Origin: a virus
Length of the DNA: 27,166 nt
Virus record (IMG/VR): IMGVR_UViG_3300006735_000184
Location: 1-27,166 of that record
Strand: one strand, 5' to 3'
The notes under the pieces were generated by a model. The model made no database searches. It was given only the letters and a program-made list of their open reading frames with translations, and had not been told where the DNA came from. The position numbers were made by a program, and so were the translations under genes. How positions within the stretch are numbered: position 1 is the first letter of the stretch; each line of letters opens with the position of its first letter. Of this stretch, positions 247-22,001 are shown piece by piece.

Positions 247-564
247 ATGGATTTAGAATATTACTCTGATATTCTGCAATTAAGAAGAGGTGGCGATGTA
301 CAGCCACCTAAAACAAAAAAATATTTTAGGTCAACTAAATCAGGTGCAGGTATGACTGCAGCTGGAGTTGCAAAGTACAGAAGAGACAATCCTGGATCTA
401 AATTAAAAACGGCTGTGACTGGTAAAGTCAAACCTGGTTCAAAAGCTGCTAAACGTAGAAAGAGCTTTTGTGCAAGGTCAGCGGGACAAATGAAAAAATT
501 TCCTAAAGCTGCTAAAGATCCAAATTCAAGATTGAGACAAGCAAGAAGAAGATGGAAGTGTTAA
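247..564 (+). CDS. Small basic phage protein, DUF6321-like
   Basis: This 105-residue protein is strongly basic (Lys/Arg-rich). Its core reads GMTAAGVAKYRRDNPGSKLK followed by KPGSKAAKRRKSFCARSAGQ, and it ends in an Arg/Lys-rich tail with a terminal Trp-Lys-Cys. From memory this matches the DUF6321 family of small phage proteins of unknown function. The basic charge and the position among head genes suggest a nucleic-acid-binding or virion-associated protein. Two other small basic proteins at 6862 and 7504 have a similar flavour (conserved Cys, many Lys/Arg). The start at 247 follows the previous stop by one base, so the two are probably translated together. The family call is from recall and the function is unknown. 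Confidence 0.7.
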   Translation: MDLEYYSDILQLRRGGDVQPPKTKKYFRSTKSGAGMTAAGVAKYRRDNPGSKLKTAVTGKVKPGSKAAKRRKSFCARSAGQMKKFPKAAKDPNSRLRQARRRWKC

Positions 565-604: not shown

Positions 605-1519
605 ATGATAATTTTAGGGATAAATATATCTCATCATACCTCAATATGTATTTATGAGGATGGTAAAATAAAAAAACTTTATAATGAAGAAAGATTTATT
701 TTAGAAAAAAATTGGGCACCCAATGGAAAAAACTTTGAAATATTACAAAGTATTAATACGAAAATTAATTTTAAACCTGATTTTGTTTGTTATGCATCTG
801 CAACTGGCGCATCAACATCAGATAGAGAATATAAAATAATAAAACAAATACAAAAACAACTTAACCACCCACCGTACTTTTTTGATAATTCAAAACACCA
901 TGTATATCACGCATTAACTTGTTTTTACTTTAGTAAATATGATGAAGCTGTAGCCATAATTGTAGATGGTGGTGGAGCAGTCTCAAAAAGATTTTCTCCC
1001 TATCAAGAAATGCAATCAATTTTTACTGTTAACAAAAAAAGTATTGTTTGCCATTTTAAACACAATTCTAACAGAATTTACCAATTTCCAGAGTTTTCTA
1101 ATGAAGAAGTAATTAAAAATTATGCTTATAATTATCTTAATATATACTCACAAAAAGCCATTGGAGGTAGAGCTTTTGTTGAGGGTTGTGAAAAAATAGG
1201 AATGAGAGGCACAGATGCTGGAAAATTAATGGGATTATCATCGTATGCAAATTCTAAAAATAAATACAATTTAAATTACGATCATGTAAAAATTGCAAAT
1301 GACATACAAATTCAAACTTTTAATGAAACCTGTGATTTAATTGAAATCGCAAAAACTAAAAGTAAAAATATTTTATTATCTGGTGGATATTTTTTAAACT
1401 GCTCAAACAATTTTAAATATGTTAAAAAATATCCTGGTCTAAATTTTTTTGTTGATCCAATACCAAATGATGCAGGAACATGTATAGGAGCATGTGTTTA
1501 TTATGATAATTATAAATAA
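605..1519 (+). CDS. Carbamoyltransferase, N-terminal (Kae1-like) half, NodU/TobZ family
   Basis: These 304 residues match the N-terminal domain of NodU/CmcH/TobZ O-carbamoyltransferases, which transfer a carbamoyl group from carbamoyl-adenylate to a hydroxyl, usually on a sugar. Visible motifs are ILGINISHHTSICIYEDG at 3-20, the metal-site signature HHVYHA at 98-103 with DGGG at 121-124, GKLMGLSSYA at 206-215, SGGYFLNC at 259-266 and NDAG at 288-291. In TobZ the equivalent His, His, Asp and Asp residues hold the iron. The ORF stops just after NDAG, where family members normally continue into the C-terminal domain; that domain is the next, overlapping ORF in the +1 frame. Two subunits, a programmed frameshift or a sequencing error could each explain this. 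It opens an inserted AT-rich cassette. The substrate is unknown. Confidence 0.88.
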   Translation: MIILGINISHHTSICIYEDGKIKKLYNEERFILEKNWAPNGKNFEILQSINTKINFKPDFVCYASATGASTSDREYKIIKQIQKQLNHPPYFFDNSKHHVYHALTCFYFSKYDEAVAIIVDGGGAVSKRFSPYQEMQSIFTVNKKSIVCHFKHNSNRIYQFPEFSNEEVIKNYAYNYLNIYSQKAIGGRAFVEGCEKIGMRGTDAGKLMGLSSYANSKNKYNLNYDHVKIANDIQIQTFNETCDLIEIAKTKSKNILLSGGYFLNCSNNFKYVKKYPGLNFFVDPIPNDAGTCIGACVYYDNYK

Positions 1520-2045
1520 TTTAAATGAAGCAGTAAAAATATTACTAGATCAAAAACCTCTTGTAATTTTTCAAGGTGACAGTGAGTGGGGACCTAGAGC
1601 ATTGGGTAATAGATCTATATTATTTGATCCTAGAAATAAAAATGCAAAAGAGATAGTAAATAATTTTAAACAAAGAGAATGGTGGCGACCTCTAGCTGGA
1701 ACAATTTTACATGAGTTTGCAAATGATTATTTTTATTTCGCAAATTTATCAGAGAGTCCACATATGTCCTTTGCTGTTGATGCTAAGGAAAAAGCTTTAG
1801 AGGAGGTACCTTCTATAGTTCATGTTGATAATACTTGTAGAGTTCAAACTTTAAAAAAAAATCAAAATGAAAATTATTATAATTTAATTTATGAATTTTA
1901 CAAAAAAACAAATGTACCAATGTTATTAAACACTTCATTTAATTTAGCTGGTTTTCCAATTGTTGAAGATTTTGAAACATTAGAATTAACAGCTAAGACT
2001 TCTGAATTTAAAAATATCTATGCACCTACAACCAATCTTTGCTGA
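1503..2045 (+). CDS. Carbamoyltransferase, C-terminal (YrdC-like) half
   Basis: This is the C-terminal carbamoyltransferase domain, which in TobZ makes carbamoyl-adenylate from ATP and carbamoyl phosphate. Its motifs are very clear: FQGDSEWGPRALGNRSIL, then WWRPLAGTIL, HVDNTCRVQTL and LLNTSFNLAGFPIVE. The ATG at 1503 gives 180 residues, and a GTG at 1494 would add three. The start lies 17 nt inside the upstream half-gene, in the +1 frame, a layout typical of translational coupling. Both halves keep all the motifs I would expect, so the enzyme is plausibly functional as two polypeptides. The linker between the halves looks shorter than in fused enzymes. Its 3' end overlaps the oxygenase gene at 2020. 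Confidence 0.88.
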   Translation: MIIINNLNEAVKILLDQKPLVIFQGDSEWGPRALGNRSILFDPRNKNAKEIVNNFKQREWWRPLAGTILHEFANDYFYFANLSESPHMSFAVDAKEKALEEVPSIVHVDNTCRVQTLKKNQNENYYNLIYEFYKKTNVPMLLNTSFNLAGFPIVEDFETLELTAKTSEFKNIYAPTTNLC

Positions 2046-2619
2046 CAGTTTTATTTTATTTAAAAATATTGATTTAGACCATAATGAAATAAAATTATAT
2101 TTACAAGATCAGAAATACAGATTAGAGAAAAAAGAGAATCAAAGTTTGATGTCAGATAGTATTAAATTACTTGATCAAACAAACGTTGGTTACAATGTAA
2201 AAAAAGTTTTTGATAGATATATAACTAAAGCAATAGATGCTTGGGGATACGATGTAAGCCATAGAATAGTTAATTCTTGGGCTACCAAAACTTATCCTAA
2301 TAACAATTCACATCTTCATAGACATTTAAATTTTTGGTTGACAACTGTCTATTATCCAAAATCAGAAAATAAATTTAAAATAAAATTTGAATCAGATAGA
2401 TTTGATCTAACTGATTATGATATACATATTAAAAATAAAAATACCTTTAATAGTAGAACTTTTGTTCAAGAAGTTGAAAGTGGAGATTTAATAATTTTTT
2501 CTGCAAGATTAAAACATCAAATAGAATATAATGATACAAATGAGATAAGATATTCTTTAGCGACAAATATTCTCCCTCAAGGATGTGTAGGTAGCAGAGA
2601 TAGTGAACTTGTACTATAA
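2020..2619 (+). CDS. Putative 2OG-Fe(II) oxygenase 1 (TIGR02466-like)
   Basis: These 199 residues have the pattern of the small phage 2-oxoglutarate/Fe(II)-dependent oxygenase-like proteins. The N-terminus is MHLQPIFADSFI, followed later by SWATKTYPNNNSHLHRHLNF with candidate metal ligands among His98, His100 and His102. Then come ESGDLIIFSARLKHQIEY with His166, and EIRYSLATNILP with Arg177 in the place of the 2OG-binding Arg. Such enzymes hydroxylate proteins or small molecules. The start overlaps the carbamoyltransferase C-half by 26 nt, so the three genes form one transcription unit. A hydroxylase next to an O-carbamoyltransferase suggests that a new hydroxyl might be carbamoylated, but that is inference. 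The exact metal ligands are uncertain because three His alternate. Confidence 0.72.
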   Translation: MHLQPIFADSFILFKNIDLDHNEIKLYLQDQKYRLEKKENQSLMSDSIKLLDQTNVGYNVKKVFDRYITKAIDAWGYDVSHRIVNSWATKTYPNNNSHLHRHLNFWLTTVYYPKSENKFKIKFESDRFDLTDYDIHIKNKNTFNSRTFVQEVESGDLIIFSARLKHQIEYNDTNEIRYSLATNILPQGCVGSRDSELVL

Positions 2620-2627: not shown

Positions 2628-3335
2628 ATGTCATACTTAAATGCAAATTTACCACCTATTTATTGCAAGGTAAGAAAGGAATATTTATATGATCTTAAAA
2701 AACATCACGGAGAAAGTGAAGACTGTGTGGTCTTCGGTCTTACATCCATTTCAGGACGTGCACTCTTATTTAACATCATGCTTCCCAACGGTGCATGCTT
2801 TTGGCGTTTGCCTATCTCAGCGTTTTTTCAAAAATCGTATGATCGAGCCGATGTGCCGAATATGCAGACGCACGAGTTGGAATTGTGGAACTGTTTTAGT
2901 TATTGGCCTAGTGTTCATAGGTTTGATTGGTTGGCTGGTGTAAAAGGTAAATATCTTGGCATAGATAAAAAATTTTATCATGGAGAATATTTATTTACGA
3001 TTGATTGGGGCCACCCAGATGTTAATATCTTGGATGTTGAACATTCTGAAATACCTCAAGAACATAAGTGTGCGCATATATTGGCTCTTGCTAACGGTAA
3101 TTATGCAGCTCAGCCTAATAATCGTATTCTCTGGCACATTAATAGTTATACTACTGATAACAGCTGGCCAGATTACAAGGTTCAAACTACATATTGGGAT
3201 GCTGAAGATAGTGGATTGGTTACAGAAGATAGTGATAAAATGTTCTATGAAATGGAAAAAAAAGAACAAACTTTAAGCGAAACTTTGCAAGAGGGTTTTG
3301 AAAAAGAAAGAGAGGAGGACAAAACGTACGAATGA
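2628..3335 (+). CDS. Conserved phage protein of unknown function
   Basis: This is a 235-residue soluble protein rich in Trp, Tyr and His, with no signal peptide or membrane segment. Recognisable stretches include MSYLNANLPPIYCKVRKEYL, HHGESEDCVVFGLTSISGRA, LHELELWNCFSYWPSVHRFD-like acidic-aromatic segments and a C-terminal charged coil (about residues 205-235). I believe relatives occur in many marine short-tailed phage genomes, always without a named function. Its base composition is higher in GC (hand count about 46% over 2701-2880) than the cassette before it. It begins a run of tightly overlapping genes: its TGA shares bases with the ATG at 3332. I cannot assign a function. Confidence 0.75.
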   Translation: MSYLNANLPPIYCKVRKEYLYDLKKHHGESEDCVVFGLTSISGRALLFNIMLPNGACFWRLPISAFFQKSYDRADVPNMQTHELELWNCFSYWPSVHRFDWLAGVKGKYLGIDKKFYHGEYLFTIDWGHPDVNILDVEHSEIPQEHKCAHILALANGNYAAQPNNRILWHINSYTTDNSWPDYKVQTTYWDAEDSGLVTEDSDKMFYEMEKKEQTLSETLQEGFEKEREEDKTYE

Positions 3336-4213: not shown

Positions 4214-4425
4214 TGAAATTTATTCTTAGTCTTTTAATTTGCTCTAGTGTAGCAAACGAATGTATGCCTCCTTATCAATGGCCTGAAACATTTCCTACTA
4301 AATATGATTGTTTAATGTTTGGGTATGACGAATCAAAAAATAAAATGTTAGAAATAGGAAAATCTGATGTTAATAAACATGGGATGTTTATAAGATTTAT
4401 TTGTGCACCTGATAATTCAATTTAA
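4213..4425 (+). CDS. Small secreted-looking Cys-rich protein
   Basis: This 70-residue product begins MKFILSLLICSSVANECMPP, which reads as a short signal peptide followed by a Cys- and Pro-containing mature part. Cys residues at 10, 17, 33 and 64 could pair after export. The start overlaps the stop of the previous gene (TAATG) and its own stop overlaps the sulfotransferase start (TAATG). An outer-membrane spanin-like or periplasmic role is possible, but I do not see a clear lipobox. The gene is more AT-rich than those upstream. Confidence 0.58.
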   Translation: MKFILSLLICSSVANECMPPYQWPETFPTKYDCLMFGYDESKNKMLEIGKSDVNKHGMFIRFICAPDNSI

Positions 4426-5207
4426 TGAAAATTAAAAAAATATTTTTTCTATGTTCATTGCCAAGAGCAGGCAACACAGTTTTAGGATCTATAATTAACT
4501 CTAATAAAAATATTAAAATGAGTCCTAATTCAATTTGTCCTGATATAATAAATAATTTACAAATAATTAAAAATTCTGACATATTTCAAAATTTTCCAAA
4601 TCATAAATCATTAGATAATGTGTTAAAAAATTGCATTCAAAATTATTATGAAGATTGGAATGTCGAAAATATTATAGATAGATCACAATGGGGTACGCCA
4701 GGAAATTTATCATCATTAAAAAAAATTATAGAAAAACCTAAATTTATTATTTTATATAGACCCTTAGTTGAGTGTGTATGCTCTTTTGCAAAATTACAAA
4801 TTGAAAGTAATAATTATACAAAAGACAACGTTTATGAATATATAAGTCAAATGATGAATTTTGAAAATGGAATATTAGGTAAATCTATTTGGAGCATCAC
4901 TAATTTAGTAAAAGAAAAAGAAGACTACAGAATATTTTATTATAAAGATTTAGTAGAAAACATTGATAATTTTTTAAAAAATTTAAGTTTATTTTTAAAT
5001 GTTGAAATAAATAAACCTAAAAAATTAGAGCAATTTAATGTTAATGGTGTATACTACGATGATAGTAAAACAGTTAAAAATTTACATAAAATTGAATTAA
5101 ATTATAACACTAATTTTAACTATGATTTAAGAAAATATTTAAGTAAACAAATTATTAATGAGTGCAATGAATTTGAGGAAAAATGGATATTACCATACCT
5201 AGAATAA
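4425..5207 (+). CDS. Sulfotransferase family protein
   Basis: The 260 residues show the two PAPS-binding signatures of sulfotransferases. The 5'-phosphosulfate loop is FFLCSLPRAGNTVLGSIINS at 7-26, and the 3'-phosphate site is KFIILYRPLVECVCSFAK at 106-123 with Arg112 and Ser120. Members move a sulfo group from PAPS to a hydroxyl or amine on a sugar, lipid or Tyr. It is cytoplasmic with no membrane segment. The gene is extremely AT-rich (hand count about 17% GC for 4561-4620), unlike the genes at 2628 and 3582, which suggests recent insertion. It overlaps an oxygenase gene at 5183, so the two are probably co-expressed. A GATAAT at 4411-4416 could be a weak local -10 box. The substrate is unknown. 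Confidence 0.85.
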   Translation: MKIKKIFFLCSLPRAGNTVLGSIINSNKNIKMSPNSICPDIINNLQIIKNSDIFQNFPNHKSLDNVLKNCIQNYYEDWNVENIIDRSQWGTPGNLSSLKKIIEKPKFIILYRPLVECVCSFAKLQIESNNYTKDNVYEYISQMMNFENGILGKSIWSITNLVKEKEDYRIFYYKDLVENIDNFLKNLSLFLNVEINKPKKLEQFNVNGVYYDDSKTVKNLHKIELNYNTNFNYDLRKYLSKQIINECNEFEEKWILPYLE

Positions 5208-6176: not shown

Positions 6177-6713
6177 ATGAAATTAAATATTTTTTCTATA
6201 CCTTTATACATAGCAAATATAGATGTCACTAAAATAAATTTAGTTAGTGAAAAGTTTGAAGAAACATGGCTATCGGAGACAAGTAGTAGTCATAATTTTA
6301 AAAATACTTTAGATACCAAAAGTATAAATTATCTTCTTCAAAAGATAGCATCTTTGTTATCAAAAGATATCAAAGGTAATTATAAAATTAACCTTACATC
6401 TATATGGCAAAATAATTATAAAGAAAATGACTTCCAAGAAAGACATACACATGCAGGTTCGCATTTTTCTTTTATTATTTTTAAAAAAATAAATGAATCA
6501 AGAACAGTCTTTTTGAATCCTATTGAAGATCTTATAACAAGCTATTATAATGGATCTAATTTAAATATCTTTGATCAAGTCTACGTTCCTGAGTGTAGGC
6601 AAGGACAAATGATATTATTTCCTAGTTTTTTAGGGCACATGGTAAAAAAAACAAGTAATGCTAGTACAATAGCAGGAAACATAAATTTGGAGATTATAAA
6701 TGACAATAACTAG
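6177..6713 (+). CDS. Putative 2OG-Fe(II) oxygenase 3 (possibly lacking the usual Arg)
   Basis: The 178 residues follow the TIGR02466-like pattern: a short N-terminal MKLNIFSIPLYIANI, SIWQNNYKENDFQERHTHAG with His90 and His92, FIIFKKINESRTVFLNP, RQGQMILFPSFLGHMVKK with His154, and TIAGNINLEI. The position where related proteins usually carry the 2OG-binding Arg (just before TIAGN) reads Asn-Ala-Ser here. Either another residue serves, or the protein has lost catalysis and kept a binding role. It sits alone between the endolysin and the small basic genes, and its 3' end overlaps the start at 6700. Confidence 0.7.
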   Translation: MKLNIFSIPLYIANIDVTKINLVSEKFEETWLSETSSSHNFKNTLDTKSINYLLQKIASLLSKDIKGNYKINLTSIWQNNYKENDFQERHTHAGSHFSFIIFKKINESRTVFLNPIEDLITSYYNGSNLNIFDQVYVPECRQGQMILFPSFLGHMVKKTSNASTIAGNINLEIINDNN

Positions 6714-8459: not shown

Positions 8460-9155
8460 ATGGCAACGTCAGGAACTACAGCATTCGATTTAAATATCGA
8501 TGACATTATTGAAGAAGCATACGAGAGATGTGGTATGCGGACTAATAGTGGTAATGACTTACGTAGCGCAAGAAGAAGTTTAAATCTTTTATTTTCAGAG
8601 TGGGGTAACAGAGGAGTTCATCTTTGGAAAGTTTCTCTTAACGAAGTACCACTTGTAGCAGGGACTGCACAATACGCTGTCAATTCAAGTGTCTCTGATG
8701 TATTAGAAGCCTATATCTCAACAACTGCTGCAGCTAGTAATACTGCATCAACTAACGATATCTCTTTAACAAAAATTGATAGATCCGCATATGCAGCATT
8801 ACCTAATAAATTACAAACTGGACAACCCTCTCAATATTTTGTTGACAGACAAACAACACCTCAAATTTTTTTGTATTTAACTCCTGATGCAACAACTTAT
8901 ACAACTTTAAAATTTTACACTATTGATAGAATTCAAGATGCTGGTATTTACACTAATCAAGCAGATATAGCATATAGATTTTTACCTTGCATGTGTTCAG
9001 GTCTTGCATATTACTTATCCGTTAAAAGAGCACCAGATCGAATTCAATTATTAAAACAATTATATGAGGACGAATTATTAAGAGCATTAAGTGAAGATGG
9101 TCAAAGAGCATCTGTTTATATCTCACCTCAAACATATTTTGGAGATGGAGTATAA
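8460..9155 (+). CDS. Head-tail adaptor / tail accessory factor, P22 gp4-like
   Basis: The 231 residues begin FDLNIDDIIEEAYERCGMRT and continue with a helical block RSARRSLNLLFSEWGNRGVH. This is the pattern I associate with P22 gp4-like tail accessory factors that extend the portal and seat the tail hub. A beta-rich middle with Thr/Ser repeats follows, then a helical C-terminal part with YLSVKRAPDR and EDELLRALSEDGQR. It starts the tail module and is followed by two further connector-type genes with TAATG couplings. A gp10-like hub protein at 16292 supports a P22-type tail. The homology is judged by eye. Confidence 0.72.
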   Translation: MATSGTTAFDLNIDDIIEEAYERCGMRTNSGNDLRSARRSLNLLFSEWGNRGVHLWKVSLNEVPLVAGTAQYAVNSSVSDVLEAYISTTAAASNTASTNDISLTKIDRSAYAALPNKLQTGQPSQYFVDRQTTPQIFLYLTPDATTYTTLKFYTIDRIQDAGIYTNQADIAYRFLPCMCSGLAYYLSVKRAPDRIQLLKQLYEDELLRALSEDGQRASVYISPQTYFGDGV

Positions 9156-13513: not shown

Positions 13514-14269
13514 ATGTTTAAAAATACAATTACATTTTCTGCACATGAAGATTATGTAGATAATTGTGAAAAAGAAGATTTTCCTGTTCCTATAAAATTA
13601 AATATACCAGATTGGTATAAAAAAATGAAACATGGTTTTGGAAATCAAACTGTAAAAGGTTGTATACCATTTCTTGATACTCTAACGACTGGTTATTTGC
13701 TCAAAGTCCCTCAAGATTATAGAATAAATCATAATATATTCAATGAAGAATTAGGTAAACAAGATAGCTTTGCTCATAGTGGTAGAATAGATCCAGGATA
13801 TTTAACATCAAGATTAATTAATTTAACTATGGATCCAGCTAAAGAAGTTCATCCTGTACAACAAATACAAGGATCACCGATGGTAGAAAAAAATAAAAAT
13901 TTGCCTATCTACAAAATATTTAATCCTTGGATAATTAAGACACCACCGGGATACTCAACACTTTTTTTACCACCCATGAATAATACTGATGATAGATTTT
14001 CAATAATACCTGGAATAGTTGATACCGATACTTTTCAGTTTGAAGTTAATTTTCCCATACTTATTAATGGTGATAAATATGAATCTTTAAAAACAGTTAT
14101 AAAAAAAGGGACTCCGTATGTTCAAGTAATTCCATTTAAAAGAGACTCATGGAAAATGAAAATAAAAAAATTAAAAATAAAAGATATGGCTGGACCTAAA
14201 AATTTATATTGGACAAGAATGCTTCACATATATAAAAGTAAATTTTGGAGCAAAAAAACATGGACATAA
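13514..14269 (+). CDS. DUF6065-like phage protein
   Basis: The 251-residue protein has no membrane segment. Notable blocks are the opening HEDYVDNCEK, IPDWYKKMKH (31-40), VKGCIPFLDTLTTGYLLKVP (47-66), FNPWIIKTPPGYSTLFLPPM (136-155), VDTDTFQFEVNFPILINGD and TPYVQVIPFKRDSWK (200-214). From recall this pattern matches DUF6065, found in marine phages and cyanobacteria near 2OG oxygenases and sugar-modifying genes. The function is unknown. It leads the cassette and overlaps oxygenase 4 by 10 nt. Whether it is an enzyme or a partner of the oxygenases cannot be told from sequence. Confidence 0.68.
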   Translation: MFKNTITFSAHEDYVDNCEKEDFPVPIKLNIPDWYKKMKHGFGNQTVKGCIPFLDTLTTGYLLKVPQDYRINHNIFNEELGKQDSFAHSGRIDPGYLTSRLINLTMDPAKEVHPVQQIQGSPMVEKNKNLPIYKIFNPWIIKTPPGYSTLFLPPMNNTDDRFSIIPGIVDTDTFQFEVNFPILINGDKYESLKTVIKKGTPYVQVIPFKRDSWKMKIKKLKIKDMAGPKNLYWTRMLHIYKSKFWSKKTWT

Positions 14270-14835
14270 AAAATTACATAGAAGTGTTTGATGCGGTAAT
14301 ACCATATCCAACTCTTGCTAATTTAATAAAATTTGTAAATACTAAAAATTTTGAAAAGGCAGAAGTAATAGGGACAAGTGGTCATGAAGTGAATATGAGC
14401 ATAAGAAATACTTTTAATATTTCAATTGATATAAATTCAGAAAGCATGACTGATGTACATTGGTTAAATTTACTTACCTTAATATTTAAAACACACATGA
14501 GAAAGTATACAGAAAAAGTATCAGGTGATCCCAACAAAATTTTTGTAAGTAAAATTATAGATATTCAACTTTTAAAATATATTGAGGGTGGTTTTTACAA
14601 TTATCATGTTGACCACTGTGCTACTATACCTAGAACTTTAAGTGGAATATTTTTATTAAATAATGATTACGAAGGTGGAGAATTATGTTTTAGAGATCCA
14701 AACAACCATAATGAAGTAAAGATCGATGTCATACCTAATAGAGTGATAATTTGGCCAAGTAATTTTTTATATCCACATTGTGTTAAACCAGTTAAGAAAG
14801 GAACGAGGTACTCAGTTGTAGCATGGGGATTATAG
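14260..14835 (+). CDS. Prolyl 4-hydroxylase-like 2OG-Fe(II) oxygenase 4
   Basis: This is the clearest oxygenase of the set. The ATG at 14260 gives 191 residues; an upstream TTG at 14245 is less likely. The P4H-type core reads YIEGGFYNYHVDHCATIPRT with His116-x-Asp118, LSGIFLLNNDYEGGELCFRD, PNRVIIWPSNFLYPHCVKPV with His173, and GTRYSVVAWGL with Arg183 for 2-oxoglutarate. Length and motif order match small prolyl hydroxylases and PiuC-like proteins, which hydroxylate Pro or related residues. It overlaps oxygenase 5 by 13 nt. Its nearest structural gene upstream is the Gly/Pro-rich fibre, a reasonable candidate substrate (inference). Confidence 0.88.
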   Translation: MDIKNYIEVFDAVIPYPTLANLIKFVNTKNFEKAEVIGTSGHEVNMSIRNTFNISIDINSESMTDVHWLNLLTLIFKTHMRKYTEKVSGDPNKIFVSKIIDIQLLKYIEGGFYNYHVDHCATIPRTLSGIFLLNNDYEGGELCFRDPNNHNEVKIDVIPNRVIIWPSNFLYPHCVKPVKKGTRYSVVAWGL

Positions 14836-15377: not shown

Positions 15378-15607
15378 AGTTTGTTCAAAAAAAAGATGGA
15401 AGTGCTGATATAATATTTTCAAATGAAGAAATTAAAATAATTACAAATACTAACAAACTTACTTTAGGTGATGAAGCATTAAGACATTTTGGTAATAATT
15501 TAGTTAAAATAGTATCAGATTGGAATTTAAATTTTAATAAAAAAATTCAAAATTTACAGACAGAGGAAAATCAAGAAATAATATCTGATGAAACCTATAA
15601 TAAATAA
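15374..15607 (+). CDS. Small conserved cassette protein, unknown
   Basis: This 77-residue protein is coupled by ATGA-type overlap to oxygenase 5 and overlaps the start of oxygenase 6 by 20 nt. It contains KKDGSADIIFSNEEIKIITN and LGDEALRHFGNNLVKIVSDW, which predict strands then a helix, and an acidic C-terminus. No catalytic motif is visible. It may be a small partner or a separate early protein carried with the cassette. Confidence 0.55.
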   Translation: MKFVQKKDGSADIIFSNEEIKIITNTNKLTLGDEALRHFGNNLVKIVSDWNLNFNKKIQNLQTEENQEIISDETYNK

Positions 15608-16238
15608 TATTGAAATATTTTATCTATGGGGACTTCCAATTGCAAAATCTAAAATATCTCCACTTGATTTTGATAAAAAAAATATTGTAGAAAAAATTGA
15701 AAAAAATTACAAATTATTACCGAGGAGAGAATCAAATTTAAAAAATAATTATGGTACTGATATTCACCAATCTCTGTACGATAATAGCAATGTTTTAAAA
15801 GATCCTCAATATGAATCGCTAAAGAAACCATATTCATTAGTAATAAAAAACTATATCAATACCTTTCATGTTAAAGAAAATTTAAAGTTTGAATTTTCAA
15901 TTTTAAACTATACTGCATCAAATGAAAAATCTTATTTAGCACCCCACTGCCATGAAGACTCGGACTTTGCAATGACACACTATATTAAATTTGATAAAAC
16001 AAATGATCCTACAACATTTGTTAATCCTTACGTATTCAATGATTTTTGGATTAGACAAAATAAATTATGTTCCTCAGTATCAAATAATATACACAATAGT
16101 TGGCTTTTTGACACTTGGACTTTTGAGACAGAAGAAGATGATATTTTAATTTTTCCAGCAATTTTAAAACATTTTGCTAATATTAGAAAATCTAATAATA
16201 TTAGGATTACCCTAGCTACAAATGTAAAGATATCTTAG
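15588..16238 (+). CDS. Putative 2OG-Fe(II) oxygenase 6 (TIGR02466-like)
   Basis: The 216-residue protein opens NIEIFYLWGLPIAKSKIS. It carries SYLAPHCHEDSDFAMTHYIK with His120, His122 and Asp124, FVNPYVFNDFW, EEDDILIFPAILKHFANIRK with His195, and NNIRITLATNVKI with Arg206. The order HxHxD, distal His, Arg matches the small 2OG-oxygenase proteins at 2020 and 6177 but is more complete, with a clear Arg. It ends the second cassette, and a 53-nt gap with a promoter follows before the tail-hub gene. It is AT-rich like its cassette neighbours. Confidence 0.78.
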   Translation: MKPIINNIEIFYLWGLPIAKSKISPLDFDKKNIVEKIEKNYKLLPRRESNLKNNYGTDIHQSLYDNSNVLKDPQYESLKKPYSLVIKNYINTFHVKENLKFEFSILNYTASNEKSYLAPHCHEDSDFAMTHYIKFDKTNDPTTFVNPYVFNDFWIRQNKLCSSVSNNIHNSWLFDTWTFETEEDDILIFPAILKHFANIRKSNNIRITLATNVKIS

Positions 16239-21095: not shown

Positions 21096-22001
21096 ATGGA
21101 TCCATTTACACTTGCATTAGCCACATTTGGCGTACAGAAACTTAGAGGAAAATCAACTAGAACAGCATTAAAAGATGCTGCCCTTGTGGGTGGTACAACT
21201 TTTGGTATAGGCCAATTAGGTGGCATGTCACGTTTTGCAGGCACACCTTTTGCATCGGCTACACAAGGTTTTAGAGGGAGTGCTTTTAGTGGTATTCCAG
21301 GGATGCAAGGCAACAATTTTTTAACAAGAATAATAGGACAAAAAGGTTCTCCAAAAAAAGAGATTATTAAAAATGCAGCTGGAGAAGTCATACAAGATGC
21401 AGCACCAGCAGTCAAAGGATCTGGAATTTTAGGTGCAGATACTGGAACTAAGCTAATTGCAGCTTCAACAATACTACCTTTATTAGCAGGAGATGATGAA
21501 GAAGTTAAACCTCCTTTTACAGAAGAAGATTATAAAAAAGCTTACGAAGAACAATCAAAAAAATTAGAAGGCGGATTTAAATCTGTAGACATGAAAACTG
21601 CTACACCTTCAAGGGCAGACGTGACGGGCTCTAACATGTTTTATGCTAATGAGGGTGGATTAGCTACAATGCTTCCAAAATATAATCAGGGAGGAGTAAA
21701 TTACTTACCATCAAAAGTTGATCATGATGAAAACGATGTTAACAACTATGTAAGAGCAACTGGTTACGTAGAAGACGGAGCAGGTGTAGGTGATAAAGAT
21801 GAAGATACAATGTTAGCTCAATTAGCTGATGGTGAATTTGTTTCAAGAGCAGATGCAGTTTTAGGAGCTGGTATTTTATCTGGTGCAGATCCAAAAAATT
21901 TTAAAGGAATGAGAAAAGCAGGAGCAGATTTTTTTTATAATCAACAAAAACAATTTAAAAGAATTTACGATATAACAAATGCAAGCAAAAAAACAAATTA
22001 A
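21096..22001 (+). CDS. Internal virion / ejection-module protein
   Basis: The 301 residues start DPFTLALATFGVQKLRGKST with Gly/Ala-rich, partly amphipathic segments to about 130, typical of small internal virion proteins. The second half contains two Gly-Gly motifs (NEGGLA at 185-190, YNQGGV at 196-201), an acidic stretch VEDGAGVGDKDEDTMLAQLA and EFVSRADAVLGAGILSG, then GADFFYNQQKQFKRIY. I recall this acidic/GADP part from marine phage proteins. It opens the ejection block from its own promoter. A role inside the capsid or in DNA delivery is inferred from context. Confidence 0.68.
   Translation: MDPFTLALATFGVQKLRGKSTRTALKDAALVGGTTFGIGQLGGMSRFAGTPFASATQGFRGSAFSGIPGMQGNNFLTRIIGQKGSPKKEIIKNAAGEVIQDAAPAVKGSGILGADTGTKLIAASTILPLLAGDDEEVKPPFTEEDYKKAYEEQSKKLEGGFKSVDMKTATPSRADVTGSNMFYANEGGLATMLPKYNQGGVNYLPSKVDHDENDVNNYVRATGYVEDGAGVGDKDEDTMLAQLADGEFVSRADAVLGAGILSGADPKNFKGMRKAGADFFYNQQKQFKRIYDITNASKKTN

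Follow-up and report, generated by a model that had tools for sequence, protein, structure and literature searches.

Class III O-carbamoyltransferases of the TobZ type have been described as one-chain enzymes in which a labile intermediate is passed between two internal sites (PMC9633730, PMC6022934). In the accounts of the TobZ/GdmN family given there, carbamoyl-adenylate is the product of the YrdC-like domain, and transfer of the carbamoyl group is the task of the Kae1-like domain. Acceptors described for fused relatives include sugars, antibiotics and 5-hydroxymethylcytosine (PMC8670742), and one such relative is described as acting on a lysine amine (PMC13174530). HypF also combines a YrdC-like and a Kae1-like domain, with the YrdC-like domain first, but is described as a single chain with extra acylphosphatase and zinc-finger domains that acts on HypE (PMC6022934). 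Phages carry fused Nol-like enzymes (P-SSM2, S-SSM7, HTVC008M and Mosig; phrog_1601), each encoded by one ORF of 501 to 600 aa according to the annotated coordinates. In the synthesis of tRNA t6A, YrdC-type and Kae1-type proteins, TsaC/Sua5 and TsaD, share an adenylate while residing on separate chains.

We analyzed a stretch of viral DNA of 27,166 nucleotides (IMG/VR record IMGVR_UViG_3300006735_000184), called the window here, in which the two domains of such an enzyme are encoded by two overlapping ORFs, the N-half and the C-half (Table 1). An earlier note on this DNA had described a carbamoyltransferase divided over two overlapping ORFs with its motifs kept, and the coordinates, frames, Pfam matches and motif alignments all agree with that description; its account of TobZ-type enzymes, with both domains in one chain and carbamoyl-adenylate passed on, matches what is written in PMC9633730 and PMC6022934. 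The N-half stops just past NDAG, as had been noticed: the motif is residues 288-291 and 13 residues remain before the stop. The C-half does begin inside the N-half in the +1 frame, its stop codon ends at 2045, and the overlap is indeed free of long homopolymers, the longest run being three A. An in-frame GTG further upstream is a less likely start, because relatives share the ATG at 1503. The overlap would suit translational coupling of the two halves. The gene that follows encodes a 2OG-Fe(II) oxygenase, a possible partner of the carbamoyltransferase pair; relatives of this oxygenase (32-34% identity) come after the C-half in loci L032, L033 and L034.

Table 1. Coordinates of the carbamoyltransferase pair and of neighbouring features in the window.
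Feature	Coordinates	Strand	Remarks
Left border of cassette place, DUF6321 gene	247..564	+	PF19846; same neighbour in L003-L005
N-half gene, Kae1-like (ASKHA) acceptor domain of carbamoyltransferase	605..1519	+	304 aa; PF02543, phrog_1601, metal ligands, fold match
Alternative in-frame GTG start of C-half	1494..1496	+	less likely than ATG 1503
Overlap of N-half and C-half	1503..1519	+	17 nt; C-half start inside N-half end, +1 frame
C-half gene, YrdC-like carbamoyl-adenylate-forming domain	1503..2045	+	180 aa from ATG; PF16861, PDB matches, motifs
2OG-Fe(II) oxygenase gene	2020..2619	+	downstream, overlaps C-half end by 26 nt; PF13759 E 9.9e-12
Right border of cassette place	2628..3335	+	phrog_3704, labelled ferredoxin; no Pfam match

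The N-half matched PF02543 (Carbam_trans_N) with an E value of 1.3e-8, the best stretch being residues 249-297, and positions 1-231 of phrog_1601, a family of 528 positions. Alignment to TobZ, together with the ligands named for GdmN in PMC9633730, placed the metal site at H98, H102, D121 and D289, all of which were invariant in 22 of 22 aligned N-halves. The N-half thus has the Kae1-like domain of a class III enzyme, whose metal ligands are two His and two Asp. A structure model of an artificial chain that joins the two ORFs (discussed below) matched Kae1/TsaD chains with Z of about 18-19 and an rmsd of 3.3-3.8 Å over about 255 residues, a range that reaches the end of the model and so includes a few C-half residues. 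The N-half ORFs of L011, L012 and L018 have no ATG near the expected start, and another start codon is probably used.

The C-half is the YrdC-like, carbamoyl-adenylating domain of the class. It matched PF16861 (Carbam_trans_C; E 1.2e-51), the PDB entries 7xb6 (E 2.8e-29) and TobZ (E 2.7e-19), positions 359-522 of phrog_1601, and the stand-alone family phrog_20469 (181 positions). Its motifs GPRALGNRS, RExxRP, HxDxTCRxQT and NTSFN were found with most positions invariant in 22 of 22 aligned C-halves. Up to an E value of 0.1, PF02543 was the only Pfam match of the N-half and PF16861 the only one of the C-half; PF00814 and PF01300, which we take to be the Pfam domains of TsaD and Sua5/YrdC, were absent from the matches of either half. 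The pair resembles TsaC/Sua5 and TsaD in principle but not in domain family, and shares both domains, the catalytic motifs and the metal ligands with the class III enzymes (CmcH/NodU; TobZ, GdmN, NovN, VtdB). The fused phage enzymes are homologues of both halves.

The earlier note had proposed comparison with related phage genomes. A search of IMG/VR with the N-half gave 47 related loci, 44 of which show the same split: the C-half is a separate ORF in the +1 frame, and from its ATG onward it overlaps the N ORF by 17-26 nt. As some of the contigs are almost copies of one another, the 47 loci do not amount to 47 independent observations. In two of the other three, L019 and L020, a 206-aa ORF encoding a 2OG-Fe(II) oxygenase (PF13759, E 5.9e-15) lies between the halves, and the contig of L021 ends 55 nt past the N stop. 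The two-ORF state is thus present in the window and in 46 of the 47 loci, where the two domains do not form the single polypeptide that characterizes class III.

Two wider scans of IMG/VR (best 80 loci each, duplicates removed by DNA sequence) gave, together with the first, 107 split units with N before C (N>C), 9 split units with C before N (C>N), 23 fused units and 16 single-domain units, in a sample drawn by similarity to split-type proteins, so that the ratio of split to fused is no census. The single-domain units comprised 7 N and 1 C near contig ends and 8 N in the contig interior; with N domains standing alone away from contig ends, pairing of N and C is not universal. Among the 107 DNA-unique N>C units, overlaps in the +1 frame were of 17 nt (41 units), 20 (23), 23 (9), 14 (8) and 26 (3), a 4-nt overlap in the +2 frame occurred in 8, and the remaining 15 had other spacings or no nearby ATG. 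Over all N>C units the +1-frame overlap spans 8-56 nt, and in 5 units the halves are more than 200 nt apart. The C>N order was found in S-RIM44, Sf-FP1, S-SCSM1 (two tandem pairs) and the marine virus AG-345-D19, as well as in the 9 IMG/VR units; the C-half and N-half genes are annotated separately in the first three, while AG-345-D19 carries no annotation. In having the YrdC-like half first, the swapped cyanophage pairs resemble HypF. The best 80 bacterial or archaeal loci were fused in one ORF in 78 cases and cut at a contig end in the other 2.

The split pairs also lack part of the chain that connects the domains in fused enzymes. From the end of DxGxxxGA to GPRALGN, fused enzymes had a median of 73 residues on the phage side (19 of 29 units) and 74 in cellular genomes (71 of 80), whereas split pairs had about 8 residues after DxGxxxGA and about 29 before GPRALGN (97 of 107 units); the motif pattern missed, and left unmeasured, 10 phage-side fused, 9 cellular and 10 split units. 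In fused L118, L106 and L290 and split L104 and L129 the anchor hit an earlier motif; these were kept, which makes the ranges too wide and affects the medians little. The interdomain stretch of about 73 residues seen in class III enzymes is therefore not found in the split units, and by this comparison of sequences the domain boundary has lost about 36 residues. Many fused phage forms have an LYLGP-like stretch in this linker. The split form would thus differ from the one-chain enzymes in having two chains, two genes and no such linker.

We modelled the joined chain, which gave a pLDDT of 91.8 and a pTM of 0.81. Against TobZ and GdmN it reached Z of 22-25, and among the structures listed only carbamoyltransferases exceeded Z 20, but the rmsd was 23-24 Å over 405-423 residues: the domains were recognised and their mutual placement was unlike that in TobZ. 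As a control, the naturally fused phage relative L111, modelled with the same 91 alignment rows, gave a pTM of 0.94 and superposed on 518 TobZ residues at 2.7 Å, although the alignment contains nearer fused relatives for L111 than for the joined chain, which may have helped the control. That the linker-less joined model misses the TobZ arrangement argues against a functional joined product; the model gives nothing direct on the docking of two separate chains.

We calculated a quick tree of 126 C-halves, from which near-copies (88% or more) had been dropped and in which every third remaining cellular row was kept (25 of the 126); the window is represented by the identical L001. Sixty of the 63 N>C rows fell into one clade (SH-aLRT 89). 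The window's clade contains L078, L081, L084 and L101, with a 4-nt overlap in the +2 frame, and L079, L171 and L172, in frame 0 without overlap. The three N>C rows outside it, L098, L099 and L112, each have the C domain between two N domains, so that the pairing is ambiguous there. Closest to the clade stand fused phage forms interspersed with C>N rows, and the C>N rows as a whole are scattered over several places. The phage part of the tree that contains the split forms also contains P-SSM2 and S-SSM7, but not HTVC008M and Mosig. Of the cellular fused rows, 24 of 25 are outside the phage group and one, L207, is inside it among phage fused forms. The Nol-like genes of S-RIM44, Sf-FP1 and S-SCSM1 are likewise two separate genes, but they differ from the window's pair in running C then N, in standing beside a thymidylate synthase gene and in their place in the tree. 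Provided that the state seen in cells is the ancestral one, fused enzymes probably gave rise to the split on two or more occasions, the cyanophage C>N splits and the N>C split probably being separate events. A fused carbamoyltransferase lies upstream of the split pair in L013, L014 and L159, and the fused copies of L013 and L159 branch far from the split clade in the C-half tree. Fictibacillus L218 consists of three fused units with long branches.

Across 73 split representatives, N and C distances are correlated (r 0.79), yet the C-half of L066 is 93% identical to that of L026 and its N-half only 41%; for L063 and L013 the values are 83% and 39%. In AU tests the N data rejected the grouping of L066 with its C-half kin (p 1.9e-27), and the test on the C data gave p 0.02, values that are indicative only, as the groups were named after the distances had been seen and long branches meet in the N tree (L070 with L066). 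No sharp recombination breakpoint was seen in L066 at the DNA level, where identity to L026 merely rises past the junction. The low N and high C identities in L066 and L063 fit an exchange of the N-half with the C-half left in place, which seems to have happened in both. Loci L087, L098 and L107 have more N than C domains, and one generator may serve several acceptor subunits in some cyanophage-like contigs. Tentatively, and at somewhat less than even chances in our estimate, the split may have made the enzyme modular, with a conserved C-half generator working in trans with exchangeable, faster-evolving N-half acceptor subunits, so that phages could retarget carbamoylation through the exchange of a single small gene. 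Surplus N-type domains that lack their own C-half stand beside complete pairs or a fused enzyme in L087, L098, L107, L099, L112, L126, L127 and L288 (S-SSM7).

We consider it very probable that the two ORFs are two real genes encoding the subunits of one class III carbamoyltransferase of the TobZ/NodU type, the C-half making carbamoyl-AMP and the N-half transferring the carbamoyl group; the complex, its activity and its substrate are predicted. By analogy with published work on TobZ and GdmN, the C-half would form carbamoyl-adenylate from carbamoyl phosphate and ATP, and the N-half, which has two His and two Asp at its metal site, would pass the carbamoyl group to an acceptor. The overlapping start and stop would couple translation and yield about equal amounts of both chains. 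Most likely the chains would dock in trans like the two domains of TobZ, which we propose because the linker joining those domains is lost here.

The earlier note had offered a heteromeric enzyme or a frameshift as the two readings of the split. A programmed +1 frameshift in the overlap, giving one fused protein, would agree with the C frame, which is +1 wherever the halves overlap in the 47 closest loci (44 cases), but frameshift genes keep their adjacent frames in order and in frame across relatives, and these do not: a gene separates the halves in L019 and L020, the order is reversed in cyanophages, and the same clade holds the four +2-frame rows with 4-nt overlaps and the three frame-0 rows without overlap. 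The product would, in addition, be about 36 linker residues short, and its model does not take up the TobZ arrangement. On the intervening gene, the reversed order, the other frames and the linker loss we reject the frameshift as very improbable, and the two-chain part of the note's alternative is well supported. A sequencing or assembly error, or a decaying pseudogene, has the interrupted frame itself in its favor and nothing more. The note had held a sequencing slip to be unlikely, and the occurrence of the split in 44 of the 47 related loci excludes it; the two-ORF state recurs in 46 of those 47 contigs, many of them diverged in sequence, and a one-base slip cannot explain the loss of some 36 linker residues, which it would have left in place. 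Metal ligands and motifs are conserved, and dN/dS is below 1 in both halves. In 154 of 176 pairs, which are close and not independent of one another, its median was 0.094 in the C-half (maximum 0.24) and 0.213 in the N-half (maximum 0.70); by this measure both are under purifying selection. We reject error and decay as next to inconceivable.

Within the reading of two genes, and on the same evidence, the halves could also be separate enzymes linked only by diffusing carbamoyl-adenylate, with no stable complex, in the manner of TsaC/Sua5 and TsaD. Each half matches a complete domain, the intervening gene of L019 and the swapped cyanophage order show that one-chain linkage is unneeded, and loose pairing is suggested by the N-halves that seem to have been exchanged while the C-half stayed. 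A paired unit is favored instead by the tight coupling of the genes in most of the 107 N>C units and by the numbers of domains: 15 of 16 chosen larger records with the pair have exactly one N and one C, and the other, that of L159, has two of each, one pair fused and one split. TobZ-type enzymes, moreover, are described as passing the intermediate inside the protein (PMC6022934). We regard a purely diffusing intermediate as unlikely, and return to two subunits of one enzyme as the preferred reading.

The acceptor of this two-subunit enzyme may be a hydroxyl group of a surface glycan, either of the virion or of the host, or of the product of a neighbouring 2OG-Fe(II) oxygenase, which would fit the surroundings better than DNA. 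In the window these comprise 2OG-Fe(II) oxygenases, a sulfotransferase-like gene and a glycosyltransferase. A modified DNA base as acceptor is suggested by a phage-type fused metagenome enzyme described as carbamoylating 5-hydroxymethylcytosine (PMC8670742), by the position of the swapped pairs of S-RIM44, Sf-FP1 and S-SCSM1 directly after a thymidylate synthase gene, and by reported HTVC023P-type clades, some of which have thymidylate synthase and other thymidine hypermodification genes (PMC9599517). However, PF00303 thymidylate synthase was found in none of the 16 chosen split-bearing records and ThyX in one, though the records may be incomplete; together with the surroundings this points, weakly, away from DNA. 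Over 148 residues the C-half shares only 28% identity with the published enzyme, and after GPRAL it has GNR in place of that enzyme's CNT (TobZ positions 421-423, mapped by motif with position numbers given in PMC8670742). A DNA base is, on balance, rather improbable as the acceptor of the window's pair. The thymidylate synthase gene and reversed pair of L048 (S-RIM44), L049 (Sf-FP1) and L291 (S-SCSM1) form a possible DNA-base modification cluster.

We compared the genomic position of the pair among HTVC023P-type pelagiphage genomes. The halves travel as a pair, which stands at three or more distinct positions within the structural genes, with the halves together each time (L019 and L020 being counted as together though one gene intervenes); named by the window genes whose homologues flank them, the places are 247/2628, 15374/16292 and 18594+19071/19268. 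The window has 2OG-Fe(II) oxygenase genes of PF13759 or PF13640 at 2020-2619, 6177-6713, 14245-14835 and 15588-16238, among structural genes, and in some relatives the carbamoyltransferase pair occupies the place of the 15588 gene. The sulfotransferase-like gene (4425-5207; PF00685, just above the cut-off) lies in the structural region, and its relatives come after the split pair in L010 and L042. A tRNA-Leu (caa) called by ARAGORN at 21806-21904 is inside ORF 21096-22001 and is probably a false positive. By the two proteins searched, Pelagibacter phage HTVC023P is the nearest cultured relative, with 82% identity over the 8460-9152 protein and 60% identity over four fifths of the 16292 protein, which makes SAR11 the likely host. 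Between 18,000 and 60,878 the HTVC023P genome has no annotated carbamoyltransferase.

Pieces of the split enzyme are already in databases, as separate genes annotated in a few cyanophages and as a stand-alone C-half family in PHROGs. Among the literature matches listed we found no description of a split carbamoyltransferase, and the main text of a survey of 80 HTVC023P-type genomes contains no word beginning carbamoyl or carbamyl (PMC9599517). The split enzyme apparently arose more than once, with the halves in either order, and a conserved two-gene version in either order suggests that the covalent link between the two sites is dispensable. Natural separate subunits would permit channelling of the intermediate to be tested against diffusion, and carbamoylation would join the modification genes of the abundant HTVC023P-type pelagiphages.
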